Positions 8,498 through 54,334 of a stretch of DNA of 64,000 nt are shown here, one piece after another (position 1 is the stretch's first letter; each line of letters starts with the position of its first letter). A program made the translations under genes and the position numbers. Under the pieces are notes generated by a model, which saw nothing but the letters and a program-made list of their open reading frames with translations, did no database searches and was not told the DNA's origin. The stretch is from NCBI RefSeq assembly GCF_024752355.1, contig NZ_JANTHZ010000006.1, forward strand, positions 62,001-126,000, written 5' to 3'. Source of the stretch: Ancylobacter mangrovi (GTDB lineage Bacteria > Pseudomonadota > Alphaproteobacteria > Rhizobiales > Xanthobacteraceae).

Positions 8498-9309
8498 GCG
8501 GAAAGGCTCTCATCTTCCAGCGCCGCGACCGCCTGGCGGATCACGGCCTGGCGCAGGCGCAGGCTGGCAGGGTCGGCGGCGAGCCCGGCCGCGCGCAAGG
8601 CGTCGTCCAGCGTCGCCGGGTCGCTTGTCGCCGCCGCGGCGTCGGCGATGACGATCTGGCGGGCCTCGGTCGCGCCGATGACGAGGCGGTGCACGCCGCG
8701 CGCCGGGTCGGCGAGCACCGCGCACATCGCCTCGGCGAACTCGCCCACCTTGCGGCAGGACTTGCGGTAGCCGAAGCGCGCCCCGGCCGAGCAGCGCGGC
8801 ACGAAGATGCCGGTGACGATCTCGCCGTCCTGAAGCGCGGTCTCGAAGGCGCCGAGGATGAAGTCCTCCACCGGCAGCTCGCGCGTGCCCGACGGCCCGG
8901 CGAGGTGGACGCGCGCGCCGAGCGCGGCGAGCGTGGTCGGCCAGTCCGCCGCCGGGTCGGCATGGGCGAGGCTGCCGCCCATGGTGCCGCGGTTGCGCAC
9001 GGCACGATAGGCGATGCCCCGCGCGATGCGGGCGAGGAAGCCCGGCGTCGGGTCGGGCACGGCCCCGTCCTCGAACTCGGCATGGGTGATGCCGGCGCCG
9101 AACAACGTGCCCTCGGCCCCCTCCTCGACCTGCCGGAGCGGCGCCAGCCGGCCGACATCGACCAGCAGCGGCGGCCGGGCGAGGCGAAGGTTCAGCATCG
9201 GGCCGAGGCTCTGGCCGCCGGAGAGCGGCTTGGCGCCGCCCTGCCCCAGCGCGGCGAGCGCTCCCGCCAGGTCGGCGGGGCGCTCATAGTCGAACCGCGC
9301 GGCCTTCAC
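8494..9309 (-). CDS. Molybdenum hydroxylase FAD-binding subunit (CoxM type)
   Basis: A 271-aa medium subunit of a CoxSML-type hydroxylase that passes electrons from the iron-sulfur subunit to the acceptor. Both FAD-binding blocks are visible: KPLSGGQSLGPMLNLR near residue 35 and TMGGSLAHADPAADWP near residue 110. The length is standard. It overlaps the large-subunit gene upstream and the CoxS-CoxG gene downstream by 4 bp each, so the three are translationally coupled. Confidence 0.93.
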
Positions 9310-11702
9310 GACACTGCCTCCGCGCCCACGGCTTCGCGTGCGGCGCGTGCCGCCTCCACCGCCTCGCGCACCCGGCGCGGCGTCATCGGCGACATGGTGA
9401 GCTCGACGCCGAGATCGGCCAGCGCGTCGTTGATCGCGTTGCCGATCGCCGCCGGCGGCGCGATCGCCCCACCCTCGCCTATGCCCTTCTGGCCGAAGCG
9501 GGTGTTGGGGGAAGGCGTCTCCATATGGGCGATGCGCACTTCCGGCATCTCGCCCGCGCCGGGCAGCAGGTAGTCGGCGAAGGTCGAGGCGAGCGGCTGG
9601 CCGTGCTCGTCATAGACCATCTCCTCATAGAGCGCGGTGCCGATGCCCTGCGCGGTGCCGCCATAGATCTGGCCATCGACCACCATCGGGTTGAGCAGCA
9701 CGCCGCCATCCTCGACGATGACGTAGTCGAGGATCTCGACTTCGCCGGTCTCCGGCTCCACCGCGACCACGCAGGCATGGCTGGCATAAGAGAAGGTGCC
9801 GGTGTCCACGGTCGGCCGATAGCCCGCCACGAGGTCGAGCCCATCCGGATTGGCGTCCGCCGGCAGGTTCTGCGGCGCGCGGTAGAAGGTGAAGGCCACC
9901 TCCTTGAAGGTGACGGAGCCGGACGGGCCGACCACCGCCGCGTCCTCGATCCGCACCGCGTCGACCGGCGCCTGCAGCAGATGCGCGCCGATGCCCTTGA
10001 TGCGCTCCGCCAGCTTCTCGCAGGCGCTCGCCACCGCGCCGCCCGCCATCACCGCCGAGCGCGAGCCCCAGGTGCCGGTGGAATAGGGCGTCACCGCCGT
10101 GTCGCCATGCACCACGTTGACGAGGTCCGGGTCGATGCCCAGCACCTCGCAGGCGATCTGCGCCAGCGTGGTCTCCATCGACTGGCCGTGGCTCTGGTTG
10201 CCGACCCGCACCTCCAGCGTGCCGTCCGGCGTCAGCCGGGCGCCGCACTGCTCGAAGCCGGGCACCATGGGGATGCCCCAGCCGTGATAGACCGAGGTGC
10301 CATGCGCGCCCTGCTCGCAATAGGTGGCGTAGCCGATGCCGATGCGCCGCCCGTCCGCCTCGCCGCGCTTCTGGCGCTCGCGCACCGCCGCATGGCCGAT
10401 CATCTCGTGCGCCCGGCGCAGGCTCTCGGGATAGTCGCCCATGTCGAAGTCCTTCCCGGTGATGGACTTGAAGGGCATCTGGTCCGGCCGCACGAGGTTG
10501 CGCATGCGCACCTCATAGGGCTCGATCCCGGCCGCGCGGGCCACCGCGTCGATCATCAGCTCCATCGCCGTGCACACGCCGGTGCGGGCGACGCCGCGAT
10601 AGGGCACGATGGGCGGCTTGTTCGAGCACACCGAATAGGCGCGGCATTTGTAGGACGGCAGGTCGTAGGGCCCGGGCAGGTTCGAGACCACCTGCGCCCC
10701 TTCGAGGCAGGCCGAGAACGGGTAGACCGAATAGGCGCCGGCATCGACATGCGACACCGCCTCGAAACCGAGCAGCCTGCCGTCGGTGTCGGCATAGGCG
10801 GTCATGACATAGTGGTGCTCGCGGCAGTTCGCGGCGGCGATCAGGTGCTCGCGCCGGTCCTCCAGCCACTTGATCGGCCGGTCGAGCATGAGCGAGGCCC
10901 AGGAGCAGCACACTTCCTCGGGCTGGAGCAGCCCCTTCCAGCCGAAGCCGCCGCCGACATCGGGCGCCACCACGCGGATGCGGCGCTCGTCGAGCCCGAG
11001 GCATTCGGCGAGCCCCGAGCGCACGATGTGCGGCATCTGGGTCGAGGTCCACAGGCTGAGCTGCTCGATATGCCGCTCATAGACGGCGATGCAGCCCTTG
11101 CCCTCCATCGGCGCCATGCACTGCCGGCTGGTGCGCACCTCGCGCGTGACCTTGATCGGCGCCTGCGCCAGCGCCTCGTCGAAATTACGCTCGGCCTGCG
11201 AGGTCAGGAACACATTGTCCGGCCAGTCGTCATGGATGCGCGCCGCCTCGGGCCCGACCGCCCGCAGCATGTCGAAATTGGCGCCGAGCTCCTCGTAGTC
11301 GATGCTCACGAGCTCGGCGAGATCCTCCGCCTCGGCGCGGCTTTCGGCCAGCACCATCACCACCGGCTCGCCGACGAAGCGCACCTTGTCGCTCGCGAGC
11401 GAGGGCTGGGCGGAGACGCGGAAGCCCGGCAGACCGGTCTTGGCGAGGATGTCCTTCACCCCCATCATGTCGGCATGGGTGAAGGCGCGCCCCTTCAGCT
11501 CGGGCGGGATGTGGATGGTGCGGATGCGCGCATGGGCCAGGGTGGAACGCACGAAGGCGGCCTCGAGCTGGCCCGGAAATCGCATGTCGCCGATGAACCG
11601 CCCACGCCCTTGGAGAAGACGGGCATCCTCCTTGCGGGGTACCGACGCACCAACCCCCCGACGCCCTTCCCGCCGTTCGCTGATCCCCTGCTGGCCGGCC
11701 AT
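9306..11702 (-). CDS. Molybdenum hydroxylase large (molybdopterin) subunit, CoxL/XDH type
   Basis: Catalytic Mo-MCD subunit of 798 aa. QSHGQ (cofactor-binding), VPYRGVARTG and the catalytic-glutamate block FGQKGIGEGGAI are visible. The AYxCSFR loop of true form I CO dehydrogenase is absent, so CO is not a likely substrate; an aldehyde or N-heterocycle is more likely. The ATG at 11702 is preceded by GGGGGAG at very short spacing. A GTG at 11735 would add 11 residues and cannot be excluded. It is the first gene of a three-gene operon that is divergent from a second large-subunit gene. Confidence 0.92.
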   Translation of the reverse strand: MAGQQGISERREGRRGVGASVPRKEDARLLQGRGRFIGDMRFPGQLEAAFVRSTLAHARIRTIHIPPELKGRAFTHADMMGVKDILAKTGLPGFRVSAQPSLASDKVRFVGEPVVMVLAESRAEAEDLAELVSIDYEELGANFDMLRAVGPEAARIHDDWPDNVFLTSQAERNFDEALAQAPIKVTREVRTSRQCMAPMEGKGCIAVYERHIEQLSLWTSTQMPHIVRSGLAECLGLDERRIRVVAPDVGGGFGWKGLLQPEEVCCSWASLMLDRPIKWLEDRREHLIAAANCREHHYVMTAYADTDGRLLGFEAVSHVDAGAYSVYPFSACLEGAQVVSNLPGPYDLPSYKCRAYSVCSNKPPIVPYRGVARTGVCTAMELMIDAVARAAGIEPYEVRMRNLVRPDQMPFKSITGKDFDMGDYPESLRRAHEMIGHAAVRERQKRGEADGRRIGIGYATYCEQGAHGTSVYHGWGIPMVPGFEQCGARLTPDGTLEVRVGNQSHGQSMETTLAQIACEVLGIDPDLVNVVHGDTAVTPYSTGTWGSRSAVMAGGAVASACEKLAERIKGIGAHLLQAPVDAVRIEDAAVVGPSGSVTFKEVAFTFYRAPQNLPADANPDGLDLVAGYRPTVDTGTFSYASHACVVAVEPETGEVEILDYVIVEDGGVLLNPMVVDGQIYGGTAQGIGTALYEEMVYDEHGQPLASTFADYLLPGAGEMPEVRIAHMETPSPNTRFGQKGIGEGGAIAPPAAIGNAINDALADLGVELTMSPMTPRRVREAVEAARAAREAVGAEAVS

Positions 11703-11737
11703 GACTCCCCCGACTGAACCTCTTGTGTCAGACACTA

Positions 11738-17065: not shown

Positions 17066-18235
17066 TCAGTTCTGCGTGGGAAGCTGCTGCTCGGGCGGCA
17101 GCCAGGCATTGATCGCCACGGTATGCTTGGCGAGGTCGGCGGAATGACGCTCGCGCGCGTGCTTCTCGGCGGCGAGCAGGCGCGCCCGGGTCGGCTGGAA
17201 ATGCGGGACTACGTGGCGGGCGAACAGCTCGTAGTGGCGGAGCGTCGCCTCCCGGTTCGCCCAGTCATGGGCCAGCATCAAGAAGCAGCCGAAATCCCCC
17301 GCCCGGTCGGCGAGACGCTGGAGGAACGCGACCGCGTCGTCCGGCGTGCCGATGACGCCGATGCCGGTCTCGTTCATCCAGGCGATGCGCTCCTCGAACG
17401 TGTCGCCCACCGCGGTGATGGAGGGCATGGCGATGGTCTTCTGGGTGTATTCGCAGAAGGCGTCGAAGCCGTGGCGCATGTCCTCGACCGCCTGCTCGCG
17501 GGTCTCGGCGACATGGACATTGACGACGAGGCGCCAGCGGCTCGGGTCCGGCGTGTGGCCGGCCTTGATCGCCTCCTCGGCATAGACGTCCCAGTGCAGC
17601 GGCGGCGCCGGCTCGCCGAGCTTGGGCGAAATCACGCCGGTCGACAGCAGGCCGAGCCCGTGCTTGCCGGCGATGCGCGGGCCCGCCTCCGAGCGCGTGG
17701 CGGCGACGCAGACGTCGAACATCGGGTCGGTATAGGGCGCCACCTGGCAGAAGGCGTTGACCAGTTCGTAGCGGTCGGTCTTCACGCTCACCGGCTCGGC
17801 GGTGGTGAGCAGCTTCATCAGCACGCCGAGATCTTGGTCGAGCGCGGGGCGAAGCGTCGAGGGCTCCAGCCCGAACATCGCCGCGTCGCTCGGCAGGCCG
17901 CCGGGGCCGAAGCCGGCCATGAAGCGCCCGCGCATCAGGTGATCCAGCAGGATCATCCGGTCGGCGACATGGTAGGGGTTGTGATAGGGCAGCGGCACGA
18001 TGCCGGTGCCGAGCTTGATGCTGCGCGTCTGCGCTGCGGCATAGGCGAGGAACACCATCGGGTCGGCGATGATCTCGCTGCCGGCCGAATGGTGCTCGCC
18101 CACCCAGGCCTCGTCATAGCCCAGCTCGTCGATCCACTTGATCGTCTCCAGATTGCGCTGGAGCGAGGTGGTGATGTTCTGCGTCGGCGGGGAATTCCAC
18201 GGCGGCATGAAGACGCCGAAGCGGGTCCTGGTCAT
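17066..18235 (-). CDS. LLM-class flavin-dependent oxidoreductase, LimB-like
   Basis: A 389-aa luciferase-like TIM-barrel enzyme. The start MTRTRFGVFMPP, GYDEAWVGEHHSAG near residue 40, GRFMAGFGPGGLPSD near residue 105 and a long C-terminal tail match the limonene monooxygenase (LimB) branch, which normally uses FMNH2 from a separate reductase. No flavin reductase gene is seen in the operon, while F420 genes lie upstream on the same strand, so the true reductant is open. The acetamidase gene ends 10 bp upstream. Confidence 0.9.
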   Translation of the reverse strand: MTRTRFGVFMPPWNSPPTQNITTSLQRNLETIKWIDELGYDEAWVGEHHSAGSEIIADPMVFLAYAAAQTRSIKLGTGIVPLPYHNPYHVADRMILLDHLMRGRFMAGFGPGGLPSDAAMFGLEPSTLRPALDQDLGVLMKLLTTAEPVSVKTDRYELVNAFCQVAPYTDPMFDVCVAATRSEAGPRIAGKHGLGLLSTGVISPKLGEPAPPLHWDVYAEEAIKAGHTPDPSRWRLVVNVHVAETREQAVEDMRHGFDAFCEYTQKTIAMPSITAVGDTFEERIAWMNETGIGVIGTPDDAVAFLQRLADRAGDFGCFLMLAHDWANREATLRHYELFARHVVPHFQPTRARLLAAEKHARERHSADLAKHTVAINAWLPPEQQLPTQN

Positions 18236-20048: not shown

Positions 20049-20972
20049 TCAGAAGGCGTTCAGGCGCTTCTTCGCGACCTGGTAGAAGATTGTGCAGAAA
20101 GCGAAAAAGGCGATCCACACCAGCACCGCCAGCGCCGAGGCCTCGCCGATGTTCCAGAACTCGAAGGTCATCTTGTTGGCGAGGATCGAGGGCGTTTCGG
20201 TCGAGGTGCCGGGACCGCCATTGGTGAGGATGTAGATGGTGTCGAACACCTTGAAGGCGTCGATGAAGCGCAGCAGCCCGATCACCGCGAGCAGCGGCGT
20301 CATCATCGGCAGGGTGATGTGGAAGAAGATCTGCACCGGGTTGGCCCCGTCCACCGCGGCGGCGCGGTAGGGACCCAGCGGCAGCGCCTGCAGGCCGGCG
20401 AAGAAGGCCAGCATCATGAACGGCGTCCACTGCCAGATGTCGACGAAGATCAGCGCGTAGAGCGCCAGATCGGGCGAGGCGAAGACCGAGGTGTCGGTCA
20501 GGATGTTGAAGCGCTCCAGCACGTTGTAGGAGAAGAACCCCCACGAACCGGCGAGCATGATCTTCCACAGCAGGCCGACGACGATCGGCGCCATCATGGT
20601 GGGCATGAACAGCAGCGGCACCAGCACCGAGCGCCCGCGCACGTTCTGGTTCAGCACCAGCGCGCCGATCAGGCCGAGCATGAATTCGATCGGCACTGCG
20701 ATGAACACGAAGGTCGCGGCGACGCCGATCGAGTTCCAGAACCGCTCGTCGGACAGCAGCGTGGCGTAGTTGTCGAACCAGATGAAGTCACGCACCCGGC
20801 CGAACTTCGCCTGATGGAAGCTCAGATAGATGGCGTAGATGAACGGCACCAGCGAGACGACCACCAGCATGATCATCGACGGGGCGATCAGAATATAGGG
20901 GTACCAGACGCGCTCGCGCAGCCCTTGCGGAGTGGACACATGGGCGGGGGCGGCCTCCGTCGTCGCCGACAT
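20049..20972 (-). CDS. ABC transporter permease, MalF-type (CUT1 family)
   Basis: A 307-aa inner-membrane permease with six predicted helices; VWYPYILIAPSMIML is the first. The EAA loop is YRAAAVDGANPVQIFFH. It forms the transmembrane core with the next gene. It is separated from the upstream binding-protein gene by a 118-bp gap that contains a long RNA hairpin. Confidence 0.92.
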   Translation of the reverse strand: MSATTEAAPAHVSTPQGLRERVWYPYILIAPSMIMLVVVSLVPFIYAIYLSFHQAKFGRVRDFIWFDNYATLLSDERFWNSIGVAATFVFIAVPIEFMLGLIGALVLNQNVRGRSVLVPLLFMPTMMAPIVVGLLWKIMLAGSWGFFSYNVLERFNILTDTSVFASPDLALYALIFVDIWQWTPFMMLAFFAGLQALPLGPYRAAAVDGANPVQIFFHITLPMMTPLLAVIGLLRFIDAFKVFDTIYILTNGGPGTSTETPSILANKMTFEFWNIGEASALAVLVWIAFFAFCTIFYQVAKKRLNAF

Positions 20973-21002
20973 GAACGTCTCTCCGTGACGGTTCGAGAGG
21001 AT

Positions 21003-21041
21003 CGCCGACCGGCACGGTCACAGGTGACCGGCCGGTCGGCG
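21003..21041 (-). promoter_or_regulatory. Intercistronic 17-bp hairpin between binding protein and permease genes
   Basis: CGCCGACCGGC (21003-21013) pairs perfectly with 21031-21041, and CGGTCA (21015-21020) pairs with TGACCG (21025-21030), leaving a bulged A and a CAGG loop. No U-run follows on the minus strand. It therefore looks like a transcript-stabilising or partially attenuating hairpin that keeps the binding-protein mRNA in excess, as in other binding-protein-dependent operons, rather than a full terminator. Confidence 0.65.
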
Positions 21042-21090
21042 GAAACGGTGGAGGAACGGGGGCGCGGGCGCCCCCATCCCGGGTCGGGGA

Positions 21091-22506
21091 TCACTCGGGG
21101 AGCGTGCAGGACTTTCCGCCGCAGAGCTTCACCAGGATGGCCTGGCCTTCCTTGGCGCCCTGCTCGGGCGTCATCTGACCGAGGCCGACCTCCTGGGCGA
21201 TGCCGCTCATGGCGTCGATGATCTCCGGGTACTTCTCCATCTTCGGGCGCGCCTTGGCGACGTCGAGCGAAGACTTCATCGCGGCGAACAGCGTCGGGTT
21301 GTCGCTATCCTTGATCGCGGGAAGCGCCCAGGAGCTCTCGCGGATCGGCACGCCGCCCTCGCCCATCTCGATCAGCTTGTCCTGCTGCTTCTTCGAGGCG
21401 AGCCATTCCAGGAACAGGAAGGTCGCTTCGGGATGCTCGCTGGCCGCGTTGATGACGGTCACCGACGGCTCGGCGTCGGCGTGGCGATGGGCCTCGTTGC
21501 CCGCCTTGGCGGGGATCGGGCCGTAGATGAACTTGCCCGCGTAGGGCGACACGCCGGGCTTGTCGATGCCGAGCACGAAGTCCGACCAGGCCAGCGACTG
21601 GGCGGCGATGCCGTTGCCCATGACGGTGGGCACGTCGACGAGCGAGTATTCGGCGATGCCGGGCGGGGCGAAGGTCCACAGCTCGCGCCACATCTTCAGC
21701 GCGGCCACGACCTGGGGGGTGTCGAAGTTCGGCATGCCCTTGTCGTCGAGCAGGTCGCCGCCATAGTTCTCGATGAAGTTCACCCACAGGTTCGAGAAGG
21801 TCGAACCGCCCTTGATGCCCTCGAGCACGATTCCATAGAAATCGCTCTCGAGCGGCTTGCCGGCGAGCTTCTCGCCCTTCTTGCGGGTGAAGAACTCGGC
21901 GATGTCGCGCATCTGCTCGATGGTCTTCGCCGGGCCGAGGTCATAGCCGTACTTGGCCTTGAACGCCGCCATCTCCTCGGGATTGCTGAGAAGGTCCTCG
22001 CGCGCCCAATAGACGTGGTTGTAGTTCCAGTTGATGAAGCCGTACTGCTTGCCCTCGAAGAAGGCCGTGGTCTTGTAGGGCGTGGCGATGAAGTCGGCCA
22101 CGTTCATGCCCGGATCCGACAGCTTGGAGTCGGCGACGAATTTGTCGAGCGGCATGATGACGCCGGCCGAAAGCATGGGGCCGAGCTGGGCGCCGTGCAG
22201 CATGATCGCGTCATAGTGGCCGCGGCCGGACAGCATGTCCGCCTGGCCCTTGTTGATCACCTCGAAGTGGTTCAGCAGCTCCCACTCGACCTTGATGCCG
22301 GTTTCCTTCTCGAAATCCGGCACGATCTTGGACAGCGTCTCCTGCAGCGGCGTGATCTCGTCCAGCACGCGGATGGTCGTGCCCGCATAGGGCTTGCCCG
22401 CTTCCGCATAGAAGCTGTCATCCGCCCGGGCGGCGCTCGTCAACGGCGCGACCAGCGCCGTCGTTGCCGCCAAGGCGGCGGCGAAACACCAGGTCTTACG
22501 CATCAT
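21091..22506 (-). CDS. ABC transporter substrate-binding protein (CUT1 family)
   Basis: A 471-aa periplasmic solute-binding protein (SBP family 1). The signal peptide runs from MMRKTWCFAAALAATTALVA to about AARADD. The early TTIRVLDE and KIVPDFEKETGIKVEWELL segments are typical of sugar or polyol binding proteins. ATG 22506 follows GGGGAAGAG; a further in-frame ATG is the next codon. The ligand cannot be read from sequence; the operon context suggests something other than a plain sugar. Confidence 0.92.
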   Translation of the reverse strand: MMRKTWCFAAALAATTALVAPLTSAARADDSFYAEAGKPYAGTTIRVLDEITPLQETLSKIVPDFEKETGIKVEWELLNHFEVINKGQADMLSGRGHYDAIMLHGAQLGPMLSAGVIMPLDKFVADSKLSDPGMNVADFIATPYKTTAFFEGKQYGFINWNYNHVYWAREDLLSNPEEMAAFKAKYGYDLGPAKTIEQMRDIAEFFTRKKGEKLAGKPLESDFYGIVLEGIKGGSTFSNLWVNFIENYGGDLLDDKGMPNFDTPQVVAALKMWRELWTFAPPGIAEYSLVDVPTVMGNGIAAQSLAWSDFVLGIDKPGVSPYAGKFIYGPIPAKAGNEAHRHADAEPSVTVINAASEHPEATFLFLEWLASKKQQDKLIEMGEGGVPIRESSWALPAIKDSDNPTLFAAMKSSLDVAKARPKMEKYPEIIDAMSGIAQEVGLGQMTPEQGAKEGQAILVKLCGGKSCTLPE

Positions 22507-22547
22507 TCGCTCTTCCCCTCTTGTTGCTCGTTGGCGGCATGCGCCCG

Positions 22548-23684
22548 TCAATTGCCGGACAGCGCCCGACCCGTCGATCCGTCGAACAGGACAAGTCCCT
22601 CGTCCGGAATGGTGAGGCCGATCTCTCGGCCGATGCCTTCGCCCTCCCCCTCGCCCAGCGCGGCGGCCGTCGCCATGGACGTCTTCGCCTTGGCCAGCAG
22701 CGTGCCGAGGTCGAGCGTGACGATGGCGTGCTTGCCGAAGGGCTCGTTGGAGTAGATTTCCGCGCTCAGCGTGCCCGGCGCGCCGGGCTCGGCGAAGCCG
22801 ATGCCGTCCGGGCGCACGCCGAGGGTCACCTCCTCGCCGGCCGCCTTGGCGGCCGCGGCGGCCAGCGCCGGCGGCAGGGCGATGCGCATGCCCCGGCGGG
22901 TGAAGAACAGCACGTCGCCCTCGCGCTGGAGCGCGCCGTCGACGAGGTTCATCGGCGGATCGCCGAGCAGCCGGGCGACGCGGGTGCTGGCGGGCTTCAG
23001 CCAGATCTCTTCCGGCGTGCCGACCTGCTCAACCCGGCCCTGGTCGAGCACCACCACCCGGTCGCCGACCGACAGCGCCTCCATGCCGTCCGGCGTCAGC
23101 CAGATGCTCGGCGCGCTCTGGGCCGAGAGGCGGCGCCGGATCTCGCCGCGCAGCTTGTGCCGCAGCTTGGCGTCGAGATGGGAGATGGGCTCGTCCAGCA
23201 TGTAGAGGTCGGGCGCCTGCACCAGCAGCCGCGCCAGCGCGACGCGCTGCTTCTGCCCGCCCGACAGCGCGCCGGGCAGCCGCTCGCCGAGGTGGCGGAT
23301 CTCCAGCAGCTCCAGCACCTCGTCGACGCGCCGGTTCGCCGAGGCGGCATCGAGCCGCCCGCCCGGCGCCTGCAGCGGCGAGAGCGCGTTGCCGCGCACG
23401 GTGAGGTGCGGATAGAGCGCGTAGGATTCGAACATCAGCGCGACGCGCCGCTGCCCGGCCGGAATGGCGGCGAGATCGCGCCCGCCGAGCGAGACGCTGC
23501 CGGTCTCCGGCCGCTCGAGGCCGGCGAGGATGCGCGCGAGCGTCGTCTTGCCGGCGCCCGAGGGGCCGGTGACGGCGAGGAGCTCGCCGGGCGCGACCTC
23601 GATGCCGACATCGTGCAGCACCTTGTGGGTGAAGCTCTTGCTGAGGCCTCGCGCGATGAGGCCGGTGCGGACGGCGACGTTCAT
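22548..23684 (-). CDS. ABC transporter ATP-binding protein (MalK/UgpC type), second copy
   Basis: A 378-aa nucleotide-binding subunit with Walker [10 protein letters not shown], signature [15 protein letters not shown], Walker [13 protein letters not shown], and the C-terminal OB-fold (TOBE) domain of MalK-type proteins. It overlaps the preceding ATPase gene by 4 bp. Two different ATPases in one CUT1 operon, as in rhizobial GlpST, suggest a heterodimeric motor. Confidence 0.93.
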
Positions 23685-24787
23685 TGCAGCGCCTCCCGGT
23701 TGCGCCCGCTTGTGGCGTCGAAGACGAGCAGCTTGCCGACGTCGATGCCGAGCGCGACCCGGTCGCCGGCGCGCCAGGGCGAGGGCCCGACGATCTCGGC
23801 GACCAGCGTGTCGGCGCCGCCGCTCTGGCTTTCCAGCACCACGGTGAGCACGTCGGCGTCGCCGCGCGGCTCGCGATAGGCGATGGTGCCGCGCGCCTGC
23901 CCGTCCATGTCGGGCGCGCGCACCGCGATGTTCTCCGGCCGGATGCCGGCCACGATCGCCCCACCCTCGCCCTTGGCGGCGACCGCCGGCAGGCGGGCCG
24001 CGTCGAGCTTCGCCGCCCAGCCGGCGCCGACGATCGCGCCATCGGCCCCGAACTCAGCGGCCATCAGGTTCATCGGCGGCTCGCCGATGAAGTTGGCCAC
24101 GAACAGGTTGGCCGGACGCTCATAGAGCTCCTGCGGCGCGCCCACCTGCTGGAGCACGCCGTGATTCATCACCGCGACCCGGTCGGCCATGGCGATGGCC
24201 TCGGTCTGGTCGTGGGTGACGAGGATGGAGGTCACCTGCCGCAGCTTCTGCAGCCGCTTGATCTCGGCGCGAAGCTGCACCTTCTGGTCGGCATCGAGAT
24301 GCGAGAGCGGCTCGTCGAACAGGATAACTTCAGGGTCGCGGACCAGCGCGCGGCCGATGGAGACGCGCTGCATCGCGCCGCCGGAAAGGCCGCGCACCGG
24401 CTGGTCCGCCATCTGCCGCAGGCCGAGAAGCTGGAGCACCTCGCCGATGCGCTCGGAAGCGGGCTGCCCGCCGATGCCCCGTATCTTGAGCGGAAAGGCG
24501 ACGTTCTCCCACACCGTCATGTTCGGGTAGAGCGCGTAGTCCTCGAACACCATGGCGATATTGCGCTCGCCCGGGGCGAGGCGCGAGACCGGCCGCTCGC
24601 CGAAATAGATCTCGCCTTCGGAGACGCTCTCGATGCCCGCGGCCATCTTCAGCGTGGTGCTCTTGCCGCAGCCCGACGGGCCCAGCAGCGCCAGCATCTC
24701 GCCGGCGGCACATGCAAGGTCGAGTTGCTTGACCGCCTCGACCTCCCCGTAGCGCTTGAAGACGGATGTGAACGCGATTGACGACAT
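23681..24787 (-). CDS. ABC transporter ATP-binding protein (MalK/UgpC type), first copy
   Basis: A 368-aa nucleotide-binding subunit with Walker [10 protein letters not shown], signature [15 protein letters not shown], Walker [13 protein letters not shown] and a TOBE-type C-terminus. It is the first gene of the importer operon (two ATPases, binding protein, two permeases). The upstream 173-bp gap separates it from the alpha/beta hydrolase gene and contains two inverted repeats. Confidence 0.93.
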
Positions 24788-24960: not shown

Positions 24961-25701
24961 TCAAAGCGAGCGCCGCGCGACGTCCTCGAGCATACCCGCA
25001 AGGGCGTTCGGCGCCGAGAGGAAGGGCGAATGATCGCCGTCCAGCGAGAACACTTCCTCGCAGGCTGTATAGTCAACCATAGATCGCTGGTAGGCAAGGG
25101 AGACGGCGTTGTCCCGCCGGCCCTCGACATAGAAGCGGCGCACCGAGCCGAAGCGCTCGGGCGTGAGCGCGAGCGGATCGGAATAGACCTTCAGCCGCTG
25201 CGGGCGGAGCTGGCCCGTCGCCCACGCGGCGTCCTCGTCGGTGCAGCTGTTGTAGAACACCTCCGGCGCGGCCGAGGCGGGGAAGCTGGCGGTCTCCCCG
25301 TCCGGCGCCACCTGCATGTTCTTCAGCACCAGGTCCTCGACGCCGAGATGCGCATGCGCCTCGAGGAAGCTGACGAGGCTCTCGCCCGGGCGCAGCATCA
25401 GCCCGTTGATGTAGACCGTCGCCGCGATGCGGTGCGGGCGCCACTCCGCCACCTGCGAGGAGACGATGCCGCCCATGCTGTGGCCGACCAGGATCAGCGG
25501 CCCGCGCAGCGTGTCGATCATGCTGGCGATGCGGGTCGCGTAGCTGGCGAGATCGGCATTCTCCAGGGGCGCCGTATCGCCGCCGCTACCGGGAAGGTTG
25601 GGCGCGATCACCTCATGGCCCTGCTCCTCCAGCAGCGGCACGAGGCGGTGCCAGCACCAGGCGCCGTGGAACGATCCGTGGACCAGAACGAAACGCGCCA
25701 T
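24961..25701 (-). CDS. Alpha/beta hydrolase (esterase/hydroxynitrile-lyase-like)
   Basis: A 246-aa cytoplasmic alpha/beta-fold hydrolase. The N-terminal FVLVHGSFHGAWCWHRL oxyanion region, the nucleophile elbow GHSMGG with Ser75, and a late GDHSPF histidine define the catalytic machinery. It resembles the plant-type salicylate esterase/hydroxynitrile lyase branch, so a small ester is a reasonable substrate. It lies 12 bp after cofC and looks like the last gene of the F420 operon. Confidence 0.9.
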   Translation of the reverse strand: MARFVLVHGSFHGAWCWHRLVPLLEEQGHEVIAPNLPGSGGDTAPLENADLASYATRIASMIDTLRGPLILVGHSMGGIVSSQVAEWRPHRIAATVYINGLMLRPGESLVSFLEAHAHLGVEDLVLKNMQVAPDGETASFPASAAPEVFYNSCTDEDAAWATGQLRPQRLKVYSDPLALTPERFGSVRRFYVEGRRDNAVSLAYQRSMVDYTACEEVFSLDGDHSPFLSAPNALAGMLEDVARRSL

Positions 25702-25713
25702 GTCACTTATCCC

Positions 25714-26415
25714 TCATTGGTGGCGGATGGCCGGGTCGCGGGCTCGCGCGCCCAGCAGCCCTTCCGCCTCCAGCAGGCGGCGGGTGCGGGTGGTCGATGC
25801 GAGGCGCTCGAGGCGCTCGATGTCCCGTGGCAGGTCGACGTCAAGGGCGAGGCCGGGAAAGCGGGCGGGATCGTGAACCACGGGCGCGATCCCAAGCGCC
25901 TGCGCCGACCCCGCGTGCAGCGAGCAGCTCATCGGGCCGTAGGAGAAGGTCATCAGGTCCGGCGGCGAAACGAGGAGCGCATTCGTCCCCTGCCCGTCAT
26001 GGGCCGGCACGAGGCTCACCCCCGGCGTGCGCGTGTGGCGCGCCACGAGGTCGGAGATCTCGAGCGGCGTCACCGAGGGAATGTCGGCGGGAAGCACCAG
26101 CATCCCCGCCGCACCGTCGACCCGCAGGCGCGTCGCGGCCTCGGCGACCGCGAGGTTGAGCCCGCGCACCGACCGCTCGAAGATCAGCCGCGCCCCGTGC
26201 TCGCGTGCCAGCAGGCCGGCTTCCGCGTCGGCCGTGACAACCACCGTCCCGGCGAGCCCGCGCGCCGCCTGCAGCGCCGCCAGCACGTCGCGCATCATCG
26301 CCCGCACCAGCGCCTGCCGCAGGGAAGGCGGCAGGCTGCTCGCTAGGCGCTGCTTGGCGAGGGCGACCTCCTTCACCGGCACCACCGCCCAGATGCCCGC
26401 CGCGCCGGTATTCAT
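25714..26415 (-). CDS. cofC: CofC: phospholactate/PEP guanylyltransferase (F420 biosynthesis)
   Basis: A 233-aa nucleotidyltransferase that activates a three-carbon phospho-acid with GTP for F420 side-chain assembly. Typical blocks are IWAVVPVKEVALAKQRLA at the N-terminus, LPADIPSVTP, and DGQGTNALLVSPPDLMTFSYG. It could use 2-phospholactate, phosphoenolpyruvate or 3-phosphoglycerate; published family members differ and I cannot assign it from sequence. The start at 26415 overlaps the cofD stop by 4 bp. Confidence 0.93.
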   Translation of the reverse strand: MNTGAAGIWAVVPVKEVALAKQRLASSLPPSLRQALVRAMMRDVLAALQAARGLAGTVVVTADAEAGLLAREHGARLIFERSVRGLNLAVAEAATRLRVDGAAGMLVLPADIPSVTPLEISDLVARHTRTPGVSLVPAHDGQGTNALLVSPPDLMTFSYGPMSCSLHAGSAQALGIAPVVHDPARFPGLALDVDLPRDIERLERLASTTRTRRLLEAEGLLGARARDPAIRHQ

Positions 26416-27344
26416 GGGGTTTTGCCCGCCCGTTCCAGCACGAAGCGCGCGAGCCGCGTCTTGTCCTCGAGCGTGCGCATCAGTGTGGGCGCGACGGCCC
26501 GCTCCAGGCCGGCGCCGATGTCGAGACCGGCATCGGTCTCGTCGAGCACGAAGATGTCGGCCAGCCCGCGATAATGCGCGGCCACCGTCGCCGCGGAGGG
26601 GTCGAGGCCCAGCTCGCCCATCATCTTGACCGTCGGCCCCTTCACCGCCTGCCCGCCGATGACGGGCGACACCGCGATGACCGGCGCCCGGCTGGCCTCG
26701 ATCGCTGTTCGCAGGCCCGGCACGGCGAGGATCGGGTCGACGCTGAGATAGGGGTTGGACGGGCAGATCACGACCGCCGCCAGCGCCGGATCGGCCAGCG
26801 CCTCCAGCGCCGCCTCCGCCGGACGCGCGGCGGCAGCCCCCTCGAAGGCGAGGCCGAGCACGCGCGGCTGGCACTGCCGGCGCACGAAATAGTGCTGGAA
26901 GTCGAGCCAGCCCTCGTCCGTCTCCACCCTCGTGCGCACCGGCTGGTCGCTCATCGGCACGATCGCCGAGGCGAGGCCGAGCCGCCGCGCGAGCTCCGCC
27001 GTGACCGCACTGAGGCTCGCCCCCGCCCCGAGAAGGCGCGTGCGTTCGACATGGGTGGCGAGGTCGCCGTCGCCGAGCCGGAACCAGGTCTCGCCGCCGA
27101 GCTGCTCCAGCGCCTGCATGAAGGTCCAGGTCTCGTCCTTCCGGCCCCAGCCGCGCACCGGGTCGTCGAGGCCGGCGAGCGTGTAGAGCAGCGTGTCGAT
27201 GTCCGGCGAGACGTGCAGGTCGAGATGGTGGAAGTCGTCGCCCGTATTGGCGATCACCGTCAGCGCGCCGGGCGGCAGCACGCGGTCGAGCCCCAGCGCC
27301 AGCTTGGCCCCGCCGATGCCGCCCGAAATCGCCACCACCTTCAT
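26412..27344 (-). CDS. cofD: CofD/FbiA: 2-phospho-L-lactate transferase (F420 biosynthesis)
   Basis: A 310-aa transferase that joins the activated phospho-acid to F0 to give (dehydro-)F420-0. The N-terminus VVAISGGIGGAKLALGL, NTGDDFHHLDLHVSPDIDT and VGGQAVKGPTVKMM-like (IGGQAVKGPTVKMMGELG) segments are diagnostic. The length is standard. The start at 27344 overlaps cofE by 4 bp; upstream in-frame codons lie inside cofE. Confidence 0.95.
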   Translation of the reverse strand: MKVVAISGGIGGAKLALGLDRVLPPGALTVIANTGDDFHHLDLHVSPDIDTLLYTLAGLDDPVRGWGRKDETWTFMQALEQLGGETWFRLGDGDLATHVERTRLLGAGASLSAVTAELARRLGLASAIVPMSDQPVRTRVETDEGWLDFQHYFVRRQCQPRVLGLAFEGAAAARPAEAALEALADPALAAVVICPSNPYLSVDPILAVPGLRTAIEASRAPVIAVSPVIGGQAVKGPTVKMMGELGLDPSAATVAAHYRGLADIFVLDETDAGLDIGAGLERAVAPTLMRTLEDKTRLARFVLERAGKTP

Positions 27345-28096
27345 CGGAACAGGTCCTCTTCCTCGGGCCGGATCAGTGTCGCCGCCGGGCTCGCCGGCGC
27401 GGACCAGGAAAGGCCACGCACCAGCACCGCCGGCCGGCCTTCCGCCGCCGGCCCCATCAGCAGCGAGGCGGTGGCGGCGATCTCGTCGGCGAGCGCGATC
27501 ATCGTCACCTGCAACGGCCGACCGAACAGGTCGGCCTCGCCGCGCCGGTCGACCAGCGCCGGCAGGCCCGCTGCGCCGATGGCGACGCCCGCCGTGCCGC
27601 GCCGCCACGGCCGACCGAAGCTGTCGTTTATCACCACGCCGACGCCCGTCGGGGCGCCGAGCGCCGCGCGAAGCCGTTCGGCGCTGGTGTCGGGATCGGC
27701 CGGCAGCAGCAGTGCCATCCCCTCCCCGACATTCGACTGGTCGATGCCCGCATTGGCCATGATGAAGCCCAGCCGGTGCTCGACGATCAGCACGCCCGGC
27801 CGCCGTCGCACCACGCGCCGGCTTTCGGAGAGGATCAGCTCCACCAGCGCCGGGTCCTTGCCAGTCTCCTCCGCGAGCGCCATCGCGTCGGCCGAGGGCG
27901 TCACCTCGGCGAGGCGAACCAGCCGCCCCTCGGCCTTGGAGACGATCTTCTGCGCCAGCACCAGCACGTCGCCCGCACGCAGCTCCAGCCCCGCACCGGC
28001 GAGCGCCTGCGCCAGCAGCGCCGCGAGATCGTCGCCCGGCCGCACCATGGGCAGGCCTGGCAAGGCGATCAGTTCGAGCCGCGCGGGTGCCTGCAT
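27341..28096 (-). CDS. cofE: CofE: F420-0 gamma-glutamyl ligase
   Basis: A 251-aa GTP-dependent ligase that adds glutamates to F420-0. Recognisable segments are LPMVRPGDDL, GDVLVLAQKIVSKAEGR, GIDQSNVGEG and INDSFGRPWRRGTAGVAIG. Unlike mycobacterial FbiB it has no C-terminal FMN reductase domain, so a dehydro-F420-0 reductase, if needed, must be a separate protein. It starts 3 bp after fgd and overlaps cofD. Confidence 0.95.
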   Translation of the reverse strand: MQAPARLELIALPGLPMVRPGDDLAALLAQALAGAGLELRAGDVLVLAQKIVSKAEGRLVRLAEVTPSADAMALAEETGKDPALVELILSESRRVVRRRPGVLIVEHRLGFIMANAGIDQSNVGEGMALLLPADPDTSAERLRAALGAPTGVGVVINDSFGRPWRRGTAGVAIGAAGLPALVDRRGEADLFGRPLQVTMIALADEIAATASLLMGPAAEGRPAVLVRGLSWSAPASPAATLIRPEEEDLFR

Positions 28097-28099
28097 CGC

Positions 28100-29104
28100 T
28101 CAGCCGAAGGCGGCGCGCAGCCGCGGCATCACCTGCTCCGAATAGAGCTTGAGGAAGCGCTCCTGGTCCTCGCCCGGGGCGTGGAAGACCAGATGGTTGA
28201 AGCCGAGCTCGACATAGGGCCGGATCCTCTCGACATGCTCCTCCGGGTCGTCGGAGACGATCCAGCGCCGCGCCGCCCGCTCCACCGGCAGCGCGTCGGC
28301 GAGCTTCTCCATCTCCAGCGGGTCCTCGACCGACATCTTCTCCTCCGGCGAGAGCGCGAGCGCCGCCCACAGGCGCGTATCGGCGAGAGCGCGCGCCTTG
28401 TCGGTATCGAACGAGACCTTCATCTCGATCATGCGGTCGTAAGTGTCGGACGGCCGCCCCGAGGCTTCAAGCCCGGCGGCGACATTCGGCAGCAGCGTGT
28501 CGGTGTAGAGCTCCATCGGCTTGCCGCTGGTGCAGATGAAGCCGTCGCCGACCCGGCCGGCGAACTTCGCCACCATCGGCCCGGCGCCGGCGACATAGAT
28601 CGGCACCGGCCGCTCGGGACGGTCATAGATGGTGGCGCGCTCGGTGCGGTAATACTCGCCCTCGAAGCTCACCCGCTCCTCGCTCCAGAGCTGCTTGATC
28701 AGGCGCACGGCCTCGCGCAGGCGGGCGAAGCGCTCCTTCATCTCCGGCCAGGGCGCGCCGGTCGCGGGCACCTCGTTCAGCGACTCGCCCGAGCCAACGC
28801 CGAGCACGACGCGTCCGGGAAAGAGCTGGCCCAGCGTGCCGAAGGCCTGCGCGACCATGGAGGGGTGGTGGCGAAAGGTCGGGGTGAGCACGCTGGTGCC
28901 GAGCACGATGCGCGAGGTCGCGCTGCCGGCCGCGCCGAGCCAGGCGATCGCCGCCGGCGCGTGGCCGCCCGTGTGCCGCCAGGGCTGGAAATGGTCGCTG
29001 ATGAACGCCGAGTCGAAGCCGGAGCGCTCCGCCGCGACCGTGAAGTCGATCAGTTGGCGGGCGTCGAACTGCTCCGCCGATGCCTTGTAGCCGAGTTTCA
29101 GCAC
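28100..29104 (-). CDS. fgd: F420-dependent glucose-6-phosphate dehydrogenase-like LLM enzyme
   Basis: A 334-aa luciferase-like enzyme very close to actinobacterial Fgd1: start [28 protein letters not shown] with Asp37, His38 and Trp42 at the catalytic positions, [10 protein letters not shown] with Glu107, and the C-terminal [12 protein letters not shown]. In Fgd1 these residues bind F420 and transfer hydride from C1 of the sugar phosphate. Its position at the head of cofE-cofD-cofC supports F420 use. Whether the substrate is glucose-6-phosphate or another hydroxy compound is not certain. Confidence 0.92.
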
Positions 29105-33390: not shown

Positions 33391-34530
33391 TCATTGGTCG
33401 CGCTCCGTGAGATAGCGCCGGTAGTCGTAGCCGTTCACGCGCGAGTGGGAGTCCTCCTCGGCGAGGGCGAGCAGATGCGCGTGCAGCGGGGATTTGTGGC
33501 AGGCGGGATCGGTCTCGGCGGCATCGCCCGCGATCGCCATCGCCTGGCAGCGGCAGCCGCCCCAGTCGATCTCCTTGCGCTCGCACGAGCGGCACAGCTC
33601 GGGCATCCAGTCGGTGCCGCGAAAGGCGTTGAAGGCCGGCGACTCGACCCAGATCTCCTGCAGCGAATGCTCGCGCACGTTCCAGAATTCGAGGCTGGGA
33701 ATGGTCTCGGCCGCGTGGCAGGGCAGCACCTTGCCCGAGGGCGTGACGTTGAGCGACTGCCGGCCCCAGCCGTTCATGCAGGGCTTGGGGTAGCGCGCGT
33801 AATAGTCCGGCACCACGGCGTCGATGGTGAGCCGGCCCTTGAGCCGGACCCGCGCCTCCTCGACCACGTCCAGCGCGCGGAACACCTGCTCGCGCGTCGG
33901 CATCAGCGCCTGCCGGTTGCGCAGCGCCCAGCCGTAATACTGCGCGTGGGCGATCTCGATGCGCTTGGCGCCGAGCTCCAGCGCCAGCTCGATGAAGGCC
34001 GGGATCTGCTCGATGTTCGCCCGGTGCACCACCGAGTTGACGGTGAGCGGCAGGCCGAGCCGGCGCACCTCGCGCGCGACGGCGAGCTTGCGCTCATGCG
34101 CGCCCTTGAAGTTCGACACATGGTCGGTCATCGCCGCATCCGCGCCCTGGAAGGAGAGCTGGACATGGTCGATGCCCGCTTCCGAGATGGCGGCGAGGCG
34201 CTCGGGGGTGAGCCCGACGCCGGCGGTGATGAGGTTGGTGTAGAGGCCGACCTCGACGCAATGGCGGATCATGGCCTCGAGATCGCGCCGCGCCGTCGGC
34301 TCGCCGCCGGACAGGTGCACCTGCAGCACGCCGAGCCGGGCCGCCTCGCTGAACACCCGCAGCCAGGTCTCGGTGTCGAGCTCCACATTGCGCCGGTCGA
34401 GCTCGACCGGGTTCGAGCAATAGGGGCACTGCAGCGGGCAGCGATGGGTCAGCTCCGCCAGCATCCCGTAGGGCGCGGGCGGCGCGGGGCGGGTGGAGAC
34501 GGCAGGGCGCGGTTCGGCGATCACGTTCAT
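33391..34530 (-). CDS. pqqE: PqqE: radical SAM enzyme of PQQ biosynthesis
   Basis: A 379-aa radical SAM protein that cross-links the Glu and Tyr of PqqA. The SAM cluster motif is C31-x3-C35-x2-C38 (RCPLQCPYC), followed by [15 protein letters not shown]-type C-terminal region contains [16 protein letters not shown] and the terminal DPACHKSP cysteine. The start at 34530 overlaps pqqD by 4 bp. Confidence 0.97.
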
Positions 34531-34835
34531 GATGCGGCATCCCCGATCGGCGAGGGCATGGTCTCGATCAGCCCCTTCTCCTTCAGCCCGGCGAGGAAGG
34601 CGTCGACATCGCTCGCCACCCGCTCGCGGTCCACGGTGAAGGCGCTCACCAGCTCGTCGATGATGACCTCGACCGAGCGCGTGCCATCGACCTTCTTCAG
34701 GATTTCGACCGCCACCGGATCCGGGTTCAGCACGCGCTCGGGCGCCAGCAGCACCCATTGCCCGCGTGCCTCGTCGTGACGCAGGCGCACGCCGCGCACG
34801 AGACGGGGAACGGCAGTGGCGGGAATGACGGTCAT
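34527..34835 (-). CDS. pqqD: PqqD: PqqA-binding chaperone
   Basis: A 102-aa RiPP recognition element that presents PqqA to PqqE. The family pattern is clear: [27 protein letters not shown], then [18 protein letters not shown]. The start at 34835 overlaps pqqC by 4 bp, and the stop overlaps pqqE by 4 bp. Confidence 0.95.
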
Positions 34836-35569
34836 CGCTTTTCCTTCGGCTCGAAGGCGCCCGGATAGGCCATCTTCGGATCGACATAGGCGAAGTAGAG
34901 CGCGTCGAGCTGCACCCACAGCACGTCGCATTTGAACTCCAGCGCGCGGATCGCGGCCTCCTGCTGCTCGGGCGTGCGCGCGTGCTGCTTCACGTAGTCG
35001 AGTGCGAAATCCGCATCGCGCGGGGCCTGCGTCAGGCGCTTCTCGAAATAGGCCAGCGTCTCGCTGGAGACGAAATCATAGTTCTTCAGCATGCCGGCGA
35101 CACGCTCGCCGATGATGCCGGGCGAGAACATTTCGGTGAGCGAGGAAGCGATCGCCTCCAGAAGGCTCTTCTCGCGCACGAAGTGGACATAGGCCTCCAC
35201 CGCGAAACGGGTGGCCGGCAGCAGGCCGCGCAGCGAGGTGACATAGTCCCGGTCGAGGCCGAGCCCGTCGGTCAGCTTGATCCAGCGGGCGATGCCGCCC
35301 TCGCCTTCGTGATCGCCGTCATGGTCGATGATCCGCTGGCGCCAGACGCGGCGCAGCTCGGGCTCCTCCATGCGGGCGAGGACGGAGGAATCCTTCACCG
35401 GGATCATCGCCTGGTAGAAAAAACGGTTCAGCGCCCAGGCCTGGACCTGCCCGAGATCCAGCTTGCCGTCATGCAGCAGGCGGTGAAACGGGTGCAGGTT
35501 GTGGTAGCGCCGCCGGCCGACATCGCGCAGGCGTGCCTCCAGCTCGTCGGGCGTCATCAGCGCGGTCAT
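34832..35569 (-). CDS. pqqC: PqqC: pyrroloquinoline-quinone synthase
   Basis: A 245-aa cofactor-less oxidase that performs the final ring closure and eight-electron oxidation. Diagnostic segments are [47 protein letters not shown] and [20 protein letters not shown]. The start [10 protein letters not shown] at 35569 overlaps the pqqB stop by 4 bp. Confidence 0.97.
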
Positions 35570-36498
35570 AGGGCGATCTCCATCCCGTCCTCGGCTATTT
35601 CCCAGCCGGCCCGGTTGGCTTCGACGCGCTCGGGCGAGCCGTCGATCAGCACCGGATTCGTGTTGTTGATGTGCAGGTAGACGCGCCGGCCGATGCCGAT
35701 ATCCGCCAGCGCCGCCATCGACCCGTCCGGGCCGGACATGCTCATATGGCCCATGCGATGCCCGGTCTTGGCGCTGAGCCCGGCGCGGATCATCTCGTCG
35801 TCGCGCCACAGCGTGCCGTCGAACAGCACGGCGTCGGCGCCCGCCATGCGCTCGGCGAGGGCGGGCGTGACCATGGCGCAGCCGGGAATGTAGAGGACGC
35901 GCCGGTCGCCGGCCTTCAGCTCGACGCCGATGGTCTGCTCGCCCTCGATATCGGTGGCGAGGCGGCCCTTCTCGGCCTCCTCGCGCGCCTCGAGATAGAG
36001 CGCGATCTTGCCGGGCACCGGAAAGATCGTCGCGGTGACACCGGCCACCAGTTCGAACGAGGTTCCGAGCTCCACGGCGCGGCGCTCCACAATTCCCTCG
36101 GCCAGCACGTCAAACGCGCTGTTGGCGCCGAGCACGCCATGCACGGACGGCGTCGCCATCAGCGCAAAGGGCTGCCCCTCACGCAGGCTGAGCAGCCCGG
36201 CGACATGGTCGATATCGGCGTTGGTGAGCAGCACGGAGGCCACCGGCGTATGCCGGCGGCCTCCTCGCGGATGCAATGCCGGCACAGCTTGAATTTGCGC
36301 AAGGATCTCCGGTGCGCAATTCACCAATGCCCACCTCTCGCCATCCGCGGTGACCGCTATGGACGACTGGGTCCGGCGGCGGACACGGGGATCACCATCC
36401 CAGGCGAGGGTGCAAACAGGGCATCGGCAGTTCCATTGGGGGAATCCCCCGCCGGCTGCCGAGCCGAGCACGATGAGGCGCAGGCGGGACGCGGTCAT
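35566..36498 (-). CDS. pqqB: PqqB: MBL-fold protein of PQQ biosynthesis
   Basis: A 310-aa protein of the PqqB family. The N-terminus LIVLGSAAGGGFPQWNCRCPVC is diagnostic, and LLTNADIDHVAGLLSLREG is the modified metal-binding block. It hydroxylates the tyrosine-derived ring during PQQ assembly. It lies 43 bp after the pqqA stop, leaving room for the usual control of PqqA excess over the enzymes. Confidence 0.96.
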   Translation of the reverse strand: MTASRLRLIVLGSAAGGGFPQWNCRCPVCTLAWDGDPRVRRRTQSSIAVTADGERWALVNCAPEILAQIQAVPALHPRGGRRHTPVASVLLTNADIDHVAGLLSLREGQPFALMATPSVHGVLGANSAFDVLAEGIVERRAVELGTSFELVAGVTATIFPVPGKIALYLEAREEAEKGRLATDIEGEQTIGVELKAGDRRVLYIPGCAMVTPALAERMAGADAVLFDGTLWRDDEMIRAGLSAKTGHRMGHMSMSGPDGSMAALADIGIGRRVYLHINNTNPVLIDGSPERVEANRAGWEIAEDGMEIAL

Positions 36499-40017: not shown

Positions 40018-40524
40018 ATGGCCAAGATCAACAAGGTACTCATCGGTGAGTCGCTGGTCGGCGACGGCAACGAAGTCGCGCATATCGACCTCATCATTGG
40101 CCCGCGCGGTTCCGCTGCGGAGAGTGCGTTCCTCAACGCGCTCACCAACAACAAGGACGGCTTCACCTCGCTGCTCGCAGTGGTGACCCCGAACCTGCTC
40201 GCCAAGCCGAACACCATCCTGTTCAACAAGGTGACCATCAAGGACGCCCGCCAGGCGGTGCAGATGTTCGGGCCGGCCCAGTACGCCGTCGCCAAGGCCG
40301 TCGTCGACAGCGTCGCCGAAGGCGTGATCCCGGAAGACGAGGCCGACGACCTGTTCATCTCGGTCGGCGTGTTCATTCACTGGGAAGCGGCGGACGACGC
40401 CAAGATCCAGCAGTTCAACTACGAAGCCACCAAGCAGGCGATCAAGCGCGCCGTCGACGGCGAGCCGAAGATCAAGGACGTGCTCGCGCAGGCCGGCTCG
40501 GCCAAGCACCCCTTCGCCGCTTAG
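40018..40524 (+). CDS. fae: Formaldehyde-activating enzyme Fae
   Basis: A 168-aa cytoplasmic enzyme that condenses formaldehyde with tetrahydromethanopterin, the entry step of the H4MPT oxidation pathway. [24 protein letters not shown] with conserved His22, [15 protein letters not shown] and [16 protein letters not shown] are typical of true Fae. It stands alone among methanol-oxidation genes with a strong ribosome-binding site and its own terminator, consistent with high expression. The other H4MPT genes are outside the window. Confidence 0.97.
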
Positions 40525-53917: not shown

Positions 53918-54334
53918 GCCTAAATCTCCTCCTGAACGATCCTCCGGGACCGACCAACAGGTCGGCCCGTCGCGGCTTGTTGCCGTTCTGAGCTTTCGTC
54001 CTCGGCAGCGTGTCACGACCGGCTGGGGGAGAATCAGCCGGATCTTCACGGGGGCTCCTGCCCCAAGCTGGCCTACGAACCGGATCGAAGGATTGCCCCT
54101 CGAAAGCCGTTGAAGCCGAAGACGTAAGGAAGGCTAATCCGAATTCCTACAACGCGCAATAAGAACTCTTATGAGAAATAGGTCTTATTATGATTTTGCT
54201 GCAGGCGCGAAGAATATACAATATACCAGACAACTATACTTAATTCCCGCCCCGTTGCCTCGTGCGTATGCGCGTCGCTCGCGCGTGAAATAACTACCAT
54301 CCCGTCGGCGCGGTCATGCTGCGCTGCGGCATGC
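53918..54334 (-). promoter_or_regulatory. xoxF upstream region with ATAAGA/TCTTAT sites
   Basis: A 417-bp gap with no gene. It holds a 14-bp dyad ATAAGA-AC-TCTTAT (54159-54172) and a third half-site TCTTATT at 54183-54189; AATAAGA (54158-54164) and TCTTATT also form an outer inverted pair. These lie about 240 bp before the xoxF start, in an AT-rich island (54140-54245), and are candidate sites for the regulator of methanol oxidation genes. Confidence 0.55.

Follow-up and report, generated by a model that had tools for sequence, protein, structure and literature searches.

The locus analysed here raises the question of how an alphaproteobacterium would make the cofactor F420, finish it and keep it reduced. 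Five tightly packed minus-strand genes, fgd, cofE, cofD, cofC and a gene for an alpha/beta hydrolase, occupy positions 24961-29104 of a 64,000-nucleotide stretch of contig NZ_JANTHZ010000006.1 (positions 62,001 to 126,000 of the contig; the whole stretch is referred to below as the window). Gene presence, gene order, family membership and conserved pocket residues, all established directly from the DNA, indicate that this is very probably a functional operon for F420 biosynthesis and reduction. In the predicted pathway, FbiC, encoded elsewhere in the genome, would make F0; CofC would use GTP to activate a C3 phospho-acid (phosphoenolpyruvate, PEP, or 2-phospho-L-lactate, 2-PL, and not 3-phosphoglycerate, 3-PG), which CofD would couple to F0; CofE would add the glutamate tail, and Fgd would reduce the finished F420 with glucose-6-phosphate (G6P), yielding F420H2 and 6-phosphogluconolactone.

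The first four genes were judged by the curated equivalog cut-offs of NCBIfam, and all four exceed them: fgd (28100-29104, GTG start; TIGR03554, 497.7 bits, cut-off 420), cofE, encoding a stand-alone F420-0:gamma-glutamyl ligase (27341-28096; TIGR01916, 289.9 bits, cut-off 180.65), cofD, whose product would transfer 2-phospho-L-lactate (or enolpyruvyl) to F0 (26412-27344; TIGR01819, 296.1 bits, cut-off 257.45), and cofC, for a guanylyltransferase with a glycine at the position diagnostic of 3-PG use (25714-26415; TIGR03552, 134.6 bits, cut-off 105). The predicted alpha/beta hydrolase (24961-25701) matches PF12697 with 95.6 bits and no NCBIfam model above its cut-off. As calculated from the coordinates, 3 bases separate fgd from cofE and 12 bases separate cofC from the hydrolase gene, while 4-base stop-start overlaps join cofE to cofD and cofD to cofC, the start of cofD lying within the stop of cofE (ATGA). 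Judged by this spacing, the hydrolase gene belongs to the same operon. Chance open reading frames (ORFs) were rejected as an explanation on the basis of the equivalog scores and the linkage of the locus. An earlier note, made from the letters of the window alone, had named these four coupled genes and the hydrolase, and their coordinates, names and order were confirmed; its statement that CofE lacks the FbiB reductase domain also holds, as F420_ligase (PF01996) is the sole Pfam domain of this 251-amino-acid protein.

Source of F0 and linkage of the F420 genes

The earlier note had left the F0 source open and counted the lack of any F0 synthase in the genome (4.9 Mb, 22 contigs, 99.99% complete) as evidence against its reading, an objection that does not hold. 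A search revealed a fused CofG-CofH protein (FbiC), a single ORF that combines the two F0 synthase domains and lies on contig C12, separate from the contig of the window. It scores 1138.4 bits with the CofGH model (cut-off 1018), 557 bits with CofH (374.1) and 492.1 bits with CofG (213.35). Apart from CofD of the operon, no protein of the genome matches PF01933. Since FbiC, CofC, CofD and CofE are present, the predicted gene set leading from F0 to glutamylated F420 is complete, bar a possible reduction step.

A scan for Fgd relatives was used to examine the conservation of this arrangement in the best 80 of at least 578 matches, a sample in which close relatives are over-represented. The loci were split by hand, according to record titles, into 63 proteobacterial and 17 others; many are metagenome bins, in which titles may be wrong and absences of zwf or FbiE (see below) may be gaps. 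The window proteins served as tblastn queries for the cof and fbiC genes of these loci, a search in which distant versions, mainly of non-Proteobacteria, may be missed. Another F420 biosynthesis gene accompanies fgd in 59 of the 63 proteobacterial-titled loci (none in 4) and in 3 of the 17 others. In the former group cofE follows fgd at a distance of at most 600 bases in 38 loci, 29 of which also contain cofD and 21 the full fgd-cofE-cofD-cofC series, again with no gap above 600 bases. This linkage of fgd with cof genes is far beyond chance.

The best relatives among these 80 were from Ancylobacter, with Fgd proteins 84-86% identical to that of the window, and six Ancylobacter rows grouped with it in the Fgd tree (support 100/100); the tree did not show a single origin of all proteobacterial Fgd. 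These nearest sequences, from the Xanthobacteraceae, bear out the alphaproteobacterial assignment made earlier. Three of the Ancylobacter loci (L056-L058) have the order fgd-cofE-cofD-cofC, as in the window, whereas the other three (L059-L061) differ in having no cofD between cofE and cofC and one CofD elsewhere in the genome, approximately 62% identical to that of the window. It is the latter three that share the alpha/beta hydrolase gene, which was matched by tblastn at the locus in 3 of the 80 related loci and not in L056-L058. In a Martelella locus (L114, 15096-17193) a gene of the LLM family and, as judged by eye, an M24 peptidase-like gene lie between cofE and cofD.

Side-chain precursor and possible dehydro-F420 reduction

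The residue that bears on the side chain was located in a MAFFT alignment: the diagnostic position is occupied by glycine in the window CofC, as in FbiD (6BWG), while the 3-PG enzyme 7P97 has serine and 2I5E has tyrosine. Among 48 related CofC proteins the residue is glycine in 47 and alanine in one. A pairwise HMMER alignment shifts the window CofC by one position, to a tyrosine, which is still neither serine nor threonine. Serine or threonine at this position is the mark of 3-PG use (PMC8764529), and the glycine therefore makes 3PG-F420 unlikely. Although 7P97 is the closest solved structure to the window CofC (88.3 bits, compared to 46.1 for FbiD) and the 3-PG route requires no reductase, we regard a 3PG-F420 of the kind found in Mycetohabitans as quite improbable given the replacement of the diagnostic residue here and throughout the related proteins. 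The earlier note had listed three side-chain options, of which 2-PL and PEP are the likelier two.

The two differ in whether a reductase is required. The FbiB C-terminal model TIGR03553 (cut-off 249.55) gave two matches in the genome of the window, BluB (72.6 bits) and a nitroreductase (26 bits). The nitroreductase-type gene at C12:522601-523113 was rejected as an FbiE candidate, as it encodes BluB (252.8 bits, cut-off 150) and has as neighbours cobT and a gene of cobS type that does not reach its cut-off. The search for FbiB-C, as well as for zwf and Fno, covered 38 fgd genomes, comprising that of the window and 37 hand-chosen from the 80 loci (in 12 of them CofD was also searched for). TIGR03553 reached at least 138 bits in five of them, and of these only Amycolatopsis exceeded the cut-off; the other four are three Ktedonobacteria and a metagenome bin of an alphaproteobacterium, whose match sits at a contig end. 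The remaining 30 of 31 proteobacterial genomes gave at most 73.1 bits, nine of the 31 having no match at all, and the cut-off was passed by none of 14 control genomes. Three non-proteobacterial fgd genomes were likewise without a strong match, including a Sphaerobacteraceae bin (57 bits); as this bin is kin of the group with stand-alone FbiE, a divergent FbiE could be missed by the model. The result is thus that no FbiB-C/FbiE-type enzyme was recognised, as distinct from none existing.

No nitroreductase was found near the F420 genes of relatives among locus ORFs with 11 nitroreductase-family queries, which included the Ktedonobacteria proteins L148-L150 and not those of L146 (Amycolatopsis), L147 and L164, hence no true FbiB-C protein. 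A recurring SDR, considered as the missing reductase, occurs at scattered positions in 12 of the 80 loci and was not supported in this role; the copy scanned, from L084, is a standard SDR that reached no specific cut-off. In L084, L086 and L095 the SDR gene comes after cofD, and no cofC was found in the locus.

On whether CofC takes PEP, with dehydro-F420 then either used unreduced or converted by a reductase that does not belong to the recognisable FbiB-C/FbiE family, we are evenly divided. Mycobacteria use PEP (PMC6450877), and the window CofC shares the glycine of FbiD. The lack of a prominent FbiE-type protein in 30 of the 31 proteobacterial fgd genomes can be counted in favour of this reading and, together with the same result in the genome of the window, in favour of 2-PL as the substrate, as first proposed for archaea, in which case a reductase would not be needed. 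Against PEP, no reductase candidate was seen when the 40 commonest clusters of neighbouring genes were inspected, the majority by eye only, and the CofC proteins of Paracoccus and Oligotropha, both alphaproteobacterial, preferred 2-PL in vitro (PMC8764529), though the authors note that such assays cannot distinguish 2-PL from PEP in vivo. That preference speaks for 2-PL, which we nevertheless consider possible rather than probable: no lactate kinase forming 2-PL is known (PMC6450877), and no search for one was made in this genome. If PEP is used, an unrecognised reductase would finish the cofactor.

Predicted reduction of F420 by Fgd and its metabolic links

The window Fgd and M. tuberculosis FGD1 (3b4y) share 61% identity over 329 aligned residues, and the closest solved structure to the window protein is Rhodococcus jostii FGD1 (5LXE). 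The description "near-Fgd1" in the earlier note was too cautious, as this similarity and the passed TIGR03554 cut-off indicate. Residues H40, W44, E109 and T195 (FGD1 numbering), which we take to have functional roles, are kept in the window protein. Likewise kept, as K195, K256 and R280, are K198, K259 and R283 of FGD1, the proposed pocket for the phosphate of G6P (PMC5352752).

No match to Fno was found in the genome of the window at E 0.001, while 7 of 14 control genomes were matched, three of them over the cut-off. None of the 38 fgd genomes contained Fno over the cut-off, and weaker matches (up to 100.9 bits, compared to a cut-off of 149.8) were present in 25; given these, absence of Fno is claimed for the genome of the window alone. 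Fgd is therefore the only F420-reducing dehydrogenase found there among the families searched. We infer that the cells make F420 and obtain F420H2 mainly through Fgd.

The genome search for F420-binding LLM and PPOX proteins that had been proposed in the earlier note yielded two LLM proteins over an F420-family cut-off, Fgd and a neighbour of fbiC (TIGR03619), and two PPOX-type proteins below theirs. There are 20 LLM proteins in the genome, for most of which the scan was confined to the matched stretch. Besides the two mentioned, 10 are over the cut-off of the NtaA/DmoA FMN family, one over that of MsnO8 and seven over none, three of these seven matching TIGR03619 weakly (86-90 bits). Two of the seven PNPOx-type matches correspond to the F420 PPOX model TIGR03618 at 59.6 and 52.9 bits (cut-off 79.05); the remaining scanned ones (L145 was left out) resemble PdxH, an FMN PPOX protein, or nothing. 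Recognised users of F420H2 thus appear to be few, namely, besides Fgd, the one TIGR03619 LLM. This protein (200.6 bits, cut-off 166.9; "F420-dependent" according to NCBIfam) is encoded adjacent to fbiC in converging orientation, and two CoA-transferase subunits are encoded next to it (L136, 4120-6921). The LLM and the CoA-transferase are a possible candidate for an F420-dependent catabolic step.

In 11 of the 80 fgd loci, a 6-phosphogluconolactonase-type gene (pgl, 9 loci) and/or a 6-phosphogluconate dehydrogenase gene (gnd, 7 loci) lies nearby, which supports G6P as the substrate of Fgd. Pfam confirmed all nine pgl (PF01182, a family that also covers glucosamine-6-phosphate isomerases) and all seven gnd genes. 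No zwf match was obtained in 12 of the 38 fgd genomes, all proteobacterial-titled (three named strains, Paeniroseomonas aquatica and two Caldovatus, and nine bins), and one more contained only a fragment. The gene was absent from 6 of the 7 searched genomes with pgl/gnd beside fgd, compared to 6 of the 31 others (Fisher p 0.002, uncorrected for kinship); the seventh such genome, L112, has three zwf matches. Loci L089, L107, L110, L111, L117 and L123 have fgd beside a pgl-type gene and no zwf match, with gnd also present in L089, L110 and L111.

These neighbourhoods without zwf, new in this analysis and interpreted from their context, suggest a role that Fgd can play in the central sugar metabolism of Proteobacteria. 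Replacement of Zwf by Fgd was not reported in the titles and abstract openings of the literature searched, which covered few subscription journals. We propose, with more doubt than confidence, that proteobacterial F420 metabolism differs from the mycobacterial one in two respects: the cofactor may be finished without FbiB-C/FbiE, through an unrecognised reductase or a true 2-PL route, and Fgd may replace Zwf in several lineages, though not in the genome of the window. If this is true, the oxidative pentose phosphate pathway of those lineages would start with F420 and not with NADP.

Genomic setting and known F420 systems

Several observations weigh against the interpretation of the operon as a working F420 system. 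The genome of the window has two zwf genes, so that Fgd would not be needed there for G6P oxidation and would add to Zwf. An FDOR-A search of this genome gave no match; as the control genomes were silent too, absence of the family is not claimed. With no dehydro-F420 reductase recognised and a source of 2-PL not searched for, one pathway step is without an assigned enzyme. F420 was present at trace level only in the two Alphaproteobacteria tested (PMC8498797). Finally, no more than 7 of the 289 genomes in the class (that of the window included) contain a match over the Fgd cut-off, a patchy distribution that would also suit a decaying or recently acquired remnant making no cofactor. Such a remnant seems most improbable, however, since all reading frames are intact, the Fgd pocket residues are kept, FbiC is intact, and the gene order is common to three Ancylobacter loci and many Acetobacteraceae-type loci.

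The window also encodes PqqE and PqqB (33391-36498), both over NCBIfam cut-offs, Fae (40018-40524; 254.6 bits, cut-off 118.05) and, again over the cut-off, a methanol/ethanol-type alcohol dehydrogenase dependent on pyrroloquinoline quinone (52112-54049), a set that fits the "methylotroph" of the earlier note. ABC transporter genes, including two adjacent ATPases, come after the F420 operon (20049-24787), and the first ATPase (81-87% identical) follows the cof genes in all six Ancylobacter loci, as in the window. A second LLM of the window (17066-18235) is below the cut-off of every NCBIfam model matched, and the large subunit of a molybdenum hydroxylase of the CO/xanthine dehydrogenase type (9306-11735) is below all specific cut-offs.

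The literature already describes Fgd and F420 from Alphaproteobacteria (PMC8498797; PMC8764529), and clusters of this kind have been predicted in such bacteria; the genome of the window departs from the account in the first of these papers, a 2021 review, by having no Fno match. The earlier characterization of F420 in this class as rare and poorly studied is fair as regards its physiology, and the remaining interest of the locus lies in the finishing of the cofactor without a recognisable finishing enzyme. The locus brings into sharper focus by what route saturated F420 arises in bacteria that lack FbiB. The predicted F420 gene set is complete and comes from a close relative of Ancylobacter, some named strains of which are in culture. 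As only a single dehydrogenase that would reduce F420 was recognised, alongside few users, this system could allow a simple test of what F420 does in organisms other than actinobacteria and archaea.

Three known systems may be compared with that of the window. The 3PG-F420 system of Mycetohabitans is also proteobacterial, and its CofC (7P97) is the nearest solved structure to the one described here, yet the diagnostic residue is serine there and glycine in the window. Thermomicrobium roseum, which has a stand-alone FbiE (PMC8498797), resembles the window in having a CofE without a reductase domain; unlike in that bacterium, no FbiE was recognised in the genome of the window by the search with the FbiB-C model, whose best match there is BluB. 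In mycobacteria, FbiB carries the C-terminal reductase domain, whereas the window CofE stands alone without it, but the predicted reactions from F0 to F420 are the same as those of FbiABCD, and the G6P-driven reduction corresponds to that of FGD1, to which the window Fgd is 61% identical.

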